Assembly (NCBI GenBank): GCA_944390685.1
Contig: CALXQL010000014.1
Span: 1 to 32,230 of the forward strand
Direction: 5' to 3'
Source: an uncultured Alphaproteobacteria bacterium
GTDB taxonomy: Bacteria > Pseudomonadota > Alphaproteobacteria > Rs-D84 > CACZYB01
Length of the DNA stretch: 32,230 nt
Position numbers and translations under genes: made by a program. This document shows, piece by piece, positions 30,273 through 32,230 of the stretch (position 1 is the first letter of the stretch; every line of letters begins with the position of its first letter). The notes beneath the pieces are model-generated. The model did not search any database. It saw only the letters and a list, made by a program, of their open reading frames with translations, and was not told where the DNA came from.

Positions 30273-31670
30273 ATGATTTTAAATAGTATCACTATCGCAA
30301 ATAAAGAAATTTTACCATTAATTGAAGGTGGAAAGGGAATAAATATATCAACTGGCCTTACCTCTGGATTATGGGCAAATTGCGGTGGTGCTGGAACATT
30401 TTCTGGTGTAAATCCTGATTTTTACGATGAAAATGGTAATTATGTAAAACCAATTTTCAATGGAAAATCAAGACAAGAACGCCAAAAAGAATTAATAGAT
30501 TACGGGATAAGAGGTTGCCTTGACCAAGCAAAAATTGCTCATGAACAATCAAACGGAAATGGTTTAGTTTTCATGAATATCCTATGGGAACAAGGTGGGG
30601 CACAAGAACTTTTAACAAATGTATTAGAAAGAGCAAAAGGCACTATAAAGGCAATATCCTGTGGTGCTGGTATGCCATTTAAACTTGCTGAAATCTGTGC
30701 AAAAAATAAGGTATTTTATAACCCAATCATATCTTCGGCAAGGGCACTACAACTTTTATGGAAACGCTCATATTGTAAATTTAAGGAATGGATTGGTGCT
30801 GTAATATATGAGGATCCATGGCTTGCAGGTGGTCATAATGGACTATCCAATACAGATGATCCACTTACCCCTGAAAAACCTATGTCCAGATTATTGGAAA
30901 TAAGAAAATTCATGAATGAAGTAGGATTGAAAAGTGTTCCAATAATAGTTGCAGGCGGAATATGGTGGCTATCCGAATGGCTAGATTATATTGATAATAA
31001 AGAATTAGGTCCAATTGGATTTCAATTTGGAACTCGTCCTATGGTAACACAAGAAAGTCCACTTGCCATGGAAGTGAAACAAAAGTTATTAAATGTGGAA
31101 AAAGGTGGAGTAAAACTTCAAAAATTCAGTCCAACTGGTTTATACTCATCTGCTGTTGAAAATAAATTCTTAAAGGAATTGGAAAACCAATTGACCCGCC
31201 AAATACCATTTGTTGAAATACAAGATAAGGGTATAGGATTTGACATTCCTGTTGAACTAACTGCAAATAAAAAAACAGTTTATATAAATCAAGGGGATAA
31301 AGATCGCCTAAACAAATTTATAAATGATGGTTATACCTCAATTTTGAAAACACCATCAAACACATTACTATTTGTAAATAATGAAAGATATAATAATATA
31401 ATGACAGGTATGAGGGATTGTGTTGGCTGTCTTTCAAGTTGTTTATTTTCCGCATGGACCCAAAGGGAAGGAATGACTATTCAACCAGATCCAAGAAGTT
31501 TTTGTATTCAAAAATCATTACAAAACATTTCACATACAAATGATGCAGAAAATAATCTATTATTTTCCGGACAAATAGTATATAGATTTAAGGAAGATCC
31601 ATTTTATAAAAATGGAACATTCATCCCAACTATAAAGGAATTATTTGAACAAATAAAAACCGGATACTAA
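30273..31670 (+). CDS. Nitronate monooxygenase-type FMN flavoprotein
   Basis: A 465-residue member of the nitronate monooxygenase/2-nitropropane dioxygenase superfamily, a TIM-barrel family that binds FMN. Seen: an N-terminal LIEGGKGINISTG, a Gly-rich SCGAGMP (129-135), the family's GGHNG (186-190) at the position of the catalytic-site His region, the phosphate-binding VAGGIWW (226-232) and FQFGTRP. The barrel ends at about residue 300. The extra C-terminal part contains Cys383, Cys386, Cys390 and Cys411 in DCVGCLSSC and SFCIQ, a spacing that could bind a metal or Fe-S cluster. Nitronate activity is not proven for this long subgroup, which may use another substrate. GGG precedes the ATG. It is a single-gene unit with promoter and terminator. 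Confidence 0.88.
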   Translation: MILNSITIANKEILPLIEGGKGINISTGLTSGLWANCGGAGTFSGVNPDFYDENGNYVKPIFNGKSRQERQKELIDYGIRGCLDQAKIAHEQSNGNGLVFMNILWEQGGAQELLTNVLERAKGTIKAISCGAGMPFKLAEICAKNKVFYNPIISSARALQLLWKRSYCKFKEWIGAVIYEDPWLAGGHNGLSNTDDPLTPEKPMSRLLEIRKFMNEVGLKSVPIIVAGGIWWLSEWLDYIDNKELGPIGFQFGTRPMVTQESPLAMEVKQKLLNVEKGGVKLQKFSPTGLYSSAVENKFLKELENQLTRQIPFVEIQDKGIGFDIPVELTANKKTVYINQGDKDRLNKFINDGYTSILKTPSNTLLFVNNERYNNIMTGMRDCVGCLSSCLFSAWTQREGMTIQPDPRSFCIQKSLQNISHTNDAENNLLFSGQIVYRFKEDPFYKNGTFIPTIKELFEQIKTGY

Positions 31671-31675
31671 TGACA

Positions 31676-31701
31676 CCCCTTTTAATAAGGGGATTTTTTT
31701 T
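31676..31701 (+). terminator. Terminator of the flavoenzyme gene
   Basis: CCCCTT/AAGGGG (31676-31681 with 31687-31692) has a five-base loop and is followed by a run of eight T. It starts five bases after the stop codon. Confidence 0.9.
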
Positions 31702-31702
31702 A

Positions 31703-31731
31703 TTTACAATCACTACAAAATATTATATCAT
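31703..31731 (+). promoter_or_regulatory. Promoter of the structured leader RNA
   Basis: TTTACA (31703-31708) and TATCAT (31726-31731) are 17 bases apart, each five of six from consensus. The predicted start, about 31738, coincides with the first hairpin of the GC-enriched leader and lies right after the previous gene's terminator. Confidence 0.6.
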
Positions 31732-31737
31732 CTAAAC

Positions 31738-31928
31738 TGATGTCAAGAGATTGACATTGGAGCCCGAAAAACTCCTTTTAACCACGAGAGCCGACTCGCA
31801 AAAGCATAGTCATACACCCCCCTTTGGGGAGTACGGCTATATAAGGCATCATGCACGAAAGTGTCGTGCCATTTGGTTAATGGTTTTTTCGACTCCCCAC
31901 TAATTTGTTTAGTGTGTTAACAAAGGGG
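31738..31928 (+). ncRNA. Structured leader RNA, candidate riboregulator of unknown class
   Basis: About 190 bases with 80 G+C in 31741-31920 (44%), far above the surrounding DNA. Hairpins seen: ATGTCAA/TTGACAT with a GAGA loop (31740-31757); GGAG/CTCC (31759-31775); CGAG/CTCG (31785-31798); a long arm ATAGTC/GGCTAT continued by TAC/GTA and CCCC/GGGG (31806-31840); GCACGA/TCGTGC (31853-31869); CATT/AATG (31870-31882); CACTAA/TTAGTG (31898-31914). GGGGAGT (31826-31832) also pairs perfectly with ACTCCCC (31892-31898), closing a cloverleaf-like four-way junction of tRNA size followed by ACTA. Those CCCC bases can instead pair with GGGG at 31925-31928, the ribosome binding site of the next gene. 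It lacks the T-arm and U33 of a tRNA. I do not recognise it as a known riboswitch, tmRNA, SRP RNA or RNase P RNA. Confidence 0.65.
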
Positions 31929-31938
31929 AAAAGAAAAA

Positions 31939-32230
31939 ATGAATTACAAAAAAATAATATATCTAATACTTATATTTTATATCTCACTATCAAATAAAGT
32001 TAATTGTGCAACAACATCTCAACTTAAATCAGTATTGGAAAAATATGGTGTTCCATATACAAGTGATTGTGGAACATTAAATGAAGCTCATTTCAATGGC
32101 TCCAAACCAGAATGCCAACAATTGGGTATGTTTTATAATAAATCTAAACGAAGATGTGAACCTTGCCCTCTTGGAACTGCAACTGATACTAAAACTGATA
32201 CTTCTTGTAAAGATATTGTATGTCCTAATG
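31939..32230 (+). CDS. Secreted Cys-rich protein, N-terminal part
   Basis: Cut by the window end; 97 codons are visible. The signal peptide is about residues 1-24 (MNYKKIIYLILIFYISLSNK, then VNCA). The mature part begins with a short helical region, SQLKSVLEKYGVPY. A Cys-rich region follows with FYNKSKRRCEPCPLGTATD and a further Cys about every 5-20 residues; the CxxCPxGT pattern resembles the extracellular Cys-rich repeats of surface proteins (GCC2/GCC3, TNFR-like). Disulfide-bonded export to the surface is likely. GGGG lies ten bases before the ATG and can be masked by the leader RNA described separately. Family and full length cannot be judged from this fragment. Confidence 0.8.
   Translation, partial: MNYKKIIYLILIFYISLSNKVNCATTSQLKSVLEKYGVPYTSDCGTLNEAHFNGSKPECQQLGMFYNKSKRRCEPCPLGTATDTKTDTSCKDIVCPN

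Follow-up and report, generated by a model that had tools for sequence, protein, structure and literature searches.

The leader and its locus

The window, as we call the whole 32,230-nt stretch of DNA analysed here, ends within a gene for a secreted Cys-rich protein that is preceded by a long structured leader (Table 1). Behind the upstream gene (30273-31670) lie a terminator-like hairpin with a T-run, at approximately 31675-31702, and then a promoter, so that the leader is predicted to begin its own transcript. A sequence-only reading of this DNA had proposed a good promoter with the transcript start at the first hairpin. This proposal is supported, because the -10 element ends 6 nt before the 5' hairpin H0, and the -35/-10 consensus of the wider family described below ends 5-6 nt before H0 in the same layout. 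The GC enrichment noted in the same reading is borne out by a GC content of 45-47% for the leader against 28.1% for the whole window. On folding, the leader is more stable than all of its dinucleotide shuffles (200/200, z = -3.85). No tRNA or tmRNA was found in the leader region by ARAGORN. The product of the regulated gene matches PF07699 in Pfam at E = 6.1e-4, which is below the family cut-off.

The target segments a1 and b1 are also termed L and PA, and the guide segments a' and b' are also termed L' and PA'.

Table 1. Features of the window leader and the start of its gene.
Feature	Position	Strand	Basis and remarks
Sigma-70-type promoter	31703-31731	+	TTTACA 31703-31708, 17 nt, TATCAT 31726-31731; sequence and family consensus
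H0, 5' hairpin at the expected transcript start	31739-31758	+	Folds; 8 of 8 pairs changed on both sides in 54 homologues
GGAG-[loop]-CTCC hairpin	31759-31775	+	Loop is target segment a1 (CGAAAAA, 31765-31771); GGG:CCC 96% paired in 54 homologues
Target segment b1 (TTAACCA)	31778-31784	+	Partner is b' (31874-31880); 7 of 7 family pairs changed on both sides
HA hairpin, CGAG-CTCG	31785-31798	+	Sequence; covariation
Block A, C-rich	31817-31822	+	Local partner of B; sequence and fold; CCCC inside
Block B (GGGGAGT)	31826-31832	+	GGGG 31826-31829; partner of A, or of C in the closing stem of an sRNA-Xcc1/C4-like domain
P3 hairpin, GTACGGC:GTCGTGC	31831-31869	+	Internal loop TATATAAG / ACGAAAGT; short apical hairpin 31846-31854; corresponds to hairpin 1 of RF02221
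X:X' hairpin	31869-31883	+	CCAT 31869-31872, ATGG 31880-31883; loop bears guide b' (TGGTTAA, 31874-31880); corresponds to hairpin 2 of RF02221
Guide segment a' (TTTTTTCG)	31884-31891	+	Partner is a1; 97.2% of cells paired; 4 pair types at several positions
Block C (ACTCCCC)	31892-31898	+	Pairs with B or with the ribosome site
CACTAA-TTAGTG hairpin without T-tract	31898-31914	+	Occupies the terminator place of most relatives; aligned with the terminator of model R2; probable terminator relic
Ribosome-binding site AAAGGGGAAAAG and spacer	31922-31938	+	Complementary to C; SD GGGG 31925-31928
Start of regulated gene	31939-32230	+	ATG 31939; secreted Cys-rich protein with Ephrin_rec_like repeat; truncated by the contig end

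Exclusive folds and their conservation

The sequence-only reading had described four blocks, namely A, B, C and the Shine-Dalgarno (SD) sequence, that can pair in two mutually exclusive ways, and all four were found exactly where it had placed them. Pairing of A with B and of C with the SD is also the predicted minimum, at -63.8 kcal/mol with the start codon included. The alternative, in which B pairs with C, reaches -54.6 kcal/mol when folded without pseudoknots. The nested energy model thus prefers the closed state by approximately 9 kcal/mol in the window, so that opening would need something that favours B:C. Beyond the pairings given in that reading, two more long-range helices, a1:a' and b1:b', compete with local hairpins (GGG-L-CCC and X-PA'-X').

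Compensatory changes were found in every helix in a model-based alignment of 54 homologues (alignment A8). L:L' is paired in 97% and PA:PA' in 94%, each with many pair types. When H0, L:L', PA:PA', HA, P3 and most of B:C are scored jointly, the covariation score is 0.689 compared with 0.169 for shuffles and less than 0.1 for slid versions, a result to be read with the caveat that the alignment leans on all of the scored helices except B:C. B:C itself lies outside the alignment model, yet it is 95.9% paired and its covariation score exceeds that of 500 of 500 shuffles. X:X' is likewise outside the model, yet covaries among CAAU/AUUG, CUAU/AUAG and CCAU/AUGG, with AU in 32 copies, UA in 15 and CG in 4 at alignment position 281:307. 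GGG:CCC, the third helix outside the model, also shows compensatory change. Because compensatory change extends to these three helices, we regard the chain of B:C versus A:B as real.

The alignment thus demonstrates that a1:a', b1:b', B:C, P3 and X:X' have all been kept by compensatory changes. By this comparative record, the leader is a genuine RNA switch at the head of the mRNA for a secreted Cys-rich protein. The earlier proposal of a long structured leader with a possible ribosome-site switch is upheld in that B:C covaries and C complements the SD in the window's subtype.

A large family of leaders

By BLASTN, 96 relatives yielded additional copies in four genomes, all of the window's family (f1), and each copy has an SD and a coding start directly behind it. 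As the sequence-only reading had anticipated, these homologous leaders precede genes that mostly encode secreted Cys-rich proteins, although two in one genome (G003) look like truncated remnants. A covariance model, R1, made from eight leaders of the window's family only, also recovers leaders from another family of the order, f5, its best E-value there being 1.1e-7. A second model, R2, made from five leaders of f5 (Ca. Enterousia) only, has matches in 177 of 201 genomes and in 18 of the 23 genera of the order. On the whole window, R2 gives a single significant match, at 31738-31920, with E = 4.5e-7. These model E-values are rough, reflecting a short calibration. Fuller scoring with R2 yields 52, 39 and 28 copies in three genomes (G059, G022 and G027, respectively), the 52 copies residing in a 1-Mb genome; copy numbers are minimum estimates for genomes in which no more than 7-14 candidates were scored. 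Most of the genomes are metagenome assemblies, and the evidence is comparative throughout.

Among named genomes, an exact-pattern scan identified the carriers as Ca. Enterousia and other gut Alphaproteobacteria. Enterousia belongs to the order Rs-D84, whose genomes are reduced (PMC12306168). Outside the order, model R3 finds 26 further genomes of the class among 385 sampled, and in a sample of the phylum it gives only one borderline match outside the class. Neither DNA similarity nor the exact pattern revealed phage or plasmid carriage of the Rs-D84-type element. As judged from these model searches, the window leader is one copy of a very large and mostly unrecognised family.

Downstream genes and output platforms

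Among 160 distinct copies, 142 have a usable ORF, and in 79 of these the ORF starts 20-29 nt after the element. In the family as a whole, copies come with a promoter of their own, and most stand 20-30 nt ahead of a gene, chiefly genes for surface proteins and regulators. By a simple signal-peptide heuristic, 92 of the products look secreted, of which 62 are Cys-rich. Among 103 downstream proteins, the leading Pfam assignments are small HTH/XRE proteins, Ephrin_rec_like Cys repeats and outer-membrane beta-barrels. One copy (L094, G198:C45:3459-3629) is located upstream of a queuine tRNA-ribosyltransferase gene (PF01702), which is an unusual target for this leader family.

In most copies, block C continues into an intrinsic terminator, such as CUCCAACCACC...GGUGGUUUU. 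The window's subtype instead carries a hairpin without a T-tract at this place, and its C block is complementary to the SD. This complementarity is partly trivial, because every CUCC is able to pair with an SD. Two leaders with an altered C (L052 and L050, AUUCCUC and CUUCC) show correspondingly altered SDs.

Several other arrangements were observed around these leaders. The Cys-rich genes behind them break assemblies, both in the window (31939-32230) and at L033, L034, L035, L036, L042 and L051. The window contig and another contig (G000:C23; L033, 7159-7859) end within the same gene body, and their leaders and signal peptides differ, which suggests collapsed paralogues or gene conversion. 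Downstream of the Cys-rich gene at L035 (G005:C3), L037 (G003:C7) and L038 (G003:C10), another intergenic hairpin recurs, GGGTGGAAG...TTCATGGTCTTCGCTTCCACCCTCCCG, with an SD and a start codon behind it, and might be a further leader motif. Tandem arrays of 2-5 elements spaced approximately 239 nt apart occur at L078 (G061:C2:67935-69064), L083, L076, L079, L093 and L055. Each array element has a promoter, a terminator and an SD-like remnant, with no ORF between elements, and the two arrays checked (in G021 and G157) end before a small HTH-like ORF.

Relation to sRNA-Xcc1

The sequence-only reading had matched the leader to no known class, a view that the comparison with relatives does not support, although Rfam misses the window copy itself. 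Rfam returned no match for the window leader and no usable match for the window together with strongly related loci, and RF02221 (sRNA-Xcc1) fails to match the window copy even at E 10. Among leaders outside the order that were found by R2 or R3, two (L258 and L255) score 66.2 and 56.2 bits on RF02221, above the gathering score of 53. Within Rs-D84, RF02221 matches one genome (G014) at the positions of R2 elements at 6.3e-6, below the gathering score. We use 'gammaproteobacterial' for RF02221 matches that lie in the phylum but outside the class. R2 has no match at these gammaproteobacterial loci; only R3 reached one clearly, finding L318 at full length (2.4e-5).

The RF02221 consensus corresponds to the 3' half of the leader, its closing stem being B:C, its hairpin 1 being P3 and its hairpin 2 being X:X', followed by a' and C. 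The loop of its hairpin 1 is of the AAUACAAUA / GGAAUA type, as in P3. This order of closing stem, hairpin 1 with an A-rich internal loop, and hairpin 2 is present in the window and covaries in the 54 homologues. By the chain of model searches and this correspondence of order and loop, the 3' half of the leader is homologous to sRNA-Xcc1. However, RF02221 describes the 3' half only (87 nt), is filed as a trans-acting sRNA, and lacks H0, a1, b1, HA, A and the terminator or SD platform.

Published occurrences are compatible with reading sRNA-Xcc1 as part of a leader. Xylella is reported to have seven sRNA-Xcc1 homologues, of which five are clustered (PMC12189769), and in Xanthomonas the RNA lies upstream of symE (PMC12444791). 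The SymE/sRNA-Xcc1 integron cassette of Xanthomonas (PMC12444791) has a counterpart in our data, in that an RF02221 relative (L330) likewise precedes a SymE_toxin gene. The Xanthomonas cassette differs in being an integron element of plant pathogens with no genome-wide set of leaders.

Comparison with C4 antisense RNA

The C4 antisense RNA of phages P1 and P7 has an anatomy of one target (a1-b1), guides (a'-b') and a second target (a2-b2). In layout, this system (Rfam C4, RF01695; c4-a1b1, RF03163; c4-2, RF02944) has in common with the window leader a promoter, a 5' hairpin, a GGG-a1-CCC hairpin, b1 and then the guides a' and b'. The a1 hairpin occupies the same position as a1 in c4-a1b1. According to the passage of PMC8198154 that cites Citron and Schuster 1990, C4 RNA helps to repress the antirepressor.

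The gammaproteobacterial matches to RF02221 possess an unannotated 5' half with the same GGG-L-CCC hairpin and PA, complementary to L' and PA'. Pairing of their own L and PA with their own guides, compared with those of other copies, was equalled in 0 of 2000 permutations. These relatives also have the second C4 target, located at the ribosome site of phage antirepressor genes. In L316, L327, L328, L329, L338 and L339, the SD of the next gene lies between copies of L and PA, and none of 2000 permuted pairs gave as good a match of the guides to this ribosome-site region. Genes found behind these relatives include KilA-N, P22_AR_N, Rha, SymE and BRO-N, the last below the cut-off. In three cases (L316, L324 and L325) the RF02221 relative stands before an ORF of 28-30 codons with a BRO-like gene closely behind, an arrangement like that of phage P1, where icd precedes ant. 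Loci L314-L329 contain a GC hairpin and T-run (ACCGC...GCGGTATTTTT) between the 5' target and the RF02221 part, possibly an internal terminator ahead of the antisense domain.

The window's order resembles C4 in that the upstream target a1-b1 is complementary to the guides a'-b', both by pairing and in the test of own against other copies described below. It differs from C4 at the output. A second target a2-b2 at the ribosome site is unsupported, with 331 of 2000 permutations as good for f1 and the window's subtype, 132 of 2000 for f5 and 98 of 2000 for other members of the class. The downstream genes encode surface proteins and small XRE regulators rather than an antirepressor, and the gene behind the window leader is that for the Cys-rich secreted protein and not icd/ant. 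The C4 models gave no score above gathering and no match to the window copy. Model c4-a1b1 matches the 5' half of L246 and L247 weakly (L246: E 1.6e-4, 30.2 bits, gathering 46.7), and the tie to C4 therefore rests on layout together with this score.

Private pairing codes

The guides of a copy pair far better with the targets of the same copy than with those of others. Own a'b' with own a1b1 yields -18.6 kcal/mol, versus -9.4 kcal/mol with other copies (z -33, n = 87), in duplex tests that ignore intramolecular structure. Within G027, 19 of the 20 copies have their strongest pairing with themselves, 17 by a margin above 3 kcal/mol, and only 6 of 380 cross-pairs come close to own. In G059, own pairing is best in 30 of 52 copies. 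The duplex energies indicate that the a/b codes are mostly private to each copy. Private codes with few close cross-pairs leave little room for other targets.

Alternative explanations

The sequence-only reading had seen in the exclusive folds the logic of a translational riboswitch or thermosensor. The possible ribosome-site switch survives from this proposal, but we see no sign of a small-molecule ligand or of temperature, and the parts that regulate consist of private RNA:RNA codes. We judge unlikely a new riboswitch for a metabolite, an ion or temperature, in which P3, with its A-rich internal loop, and the pseudoknotted core would bind a ligand and thereby choose between B:C and the terminator or SD. 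The highly conserved unpaired loop (GAAUAUAUUGAAUA in f5, UAUAUAAG/ACGAAAGU in the window) would suit an aptamer of this kind, as would the competition of local and long-range folds and the presence of both terminator and SD platforms. Attenuators and riboswitches with such platforms are indeed alike in using exclusive helices with one strand shared with the terminator or SD, but the key pairings here are private antisense codes. Moreover, the conserved domain is common to sRNA-Xcc1, whose gammaproteobacterial copies guide against phage antirepressor ribosome sites, and the downstream genes have no common metabolic theme. As for specific ligands, c-di-GMP is unlikely in Enterousia-family genomes, because a GGDEF domain is absent from all five that were tested (0/5).

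Somewhat less probable again is a free-standing, trans-acting sRNA, as sRNA-Xcc1 is annotated, that stands before genes by chance. RF02221 is filed as an sRNA and was mapped as an 88-nt RNA in Xanthomonas (PMC2996969), most copies end in a terminator, and tandem arrays without ORFs exist. Chance placement is difficult to reconcile with the short, constant distance to a start codon with an SD, with a subtype that lacks the terminator and whose C block complements the SD, or with codes that are private to each locus. A DNA-level repeat, such as a recombination or mobile site that shuffles surface-gene cassettes with RNA folds as a by-product, might explain the many copies, the tandem arrays, the paralogous genes behind diverged leaders and the contigs that break inside genes, but is very improbable and strongly disfavoured given the massive compensatory change that keeps the RNA pairings as sequence drifts and the promoter and SD spacing kept in each copy.

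Proposed mechanism and significance

We consider it probable, from the comparative data, that the leader at 31738-31938 is a full-length C4-type antisense module that has been reworked into a leader attenuator for a surface gene. Given that the a1-b1:a'-b' code is kept and a2-b2 is unsupported, we read it as a C4-type module in which the C strand has taken over the output from guide:SD pairing, and the sharing of this strand between the closing stem and a terminator or SD would be the new output. The 5' half would present two targets, a1 within the GGG-loop-CCC hairpin and b1 after it. The 3' half would form a compact domain (B:C, P3 and X:X') that displays the guides, with b' in the X loop and a' beside C.

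The gene would be open as long as B holds C. If A captures B instead, or if the domain unfolds in some other way, C would close the gene, forming the terminator in most relatives and pairing with the SD in the window's subtype. Pairing of a1-b1 with a'-b', either in one RNA or between transcripts of the same locus, may set the nascent fold. Descent from a phage-type C4 module is suggested by the gammaproteobacterial relatives.

If this reading is correct, the annotated 'sRNA' family sRNA-Xcc1 becomes one half of a larger cis module and, through its layout, is linked to the well-known C4 antisense RNA of phages P1 and P7. The module, which was missed by Rfam scans of the window, would be a dominant gene-control element in a major uncultured gut lineage, with up to approximately 50 copies per 1-Mb genome. 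Far more tentatively, we entertain the idea that the surface proteome of these genome-reduced gut bacteria is controlled by dozens of private, locus-specific switches, all derived by domestication and multiplication of an antisense RNA of the phage immunity type. The terminated leader of each locus would then use its private a/b code to act on the nascent transcript of that locus. If true, each surface gene would have its own, possibly bistable, feedback switch.
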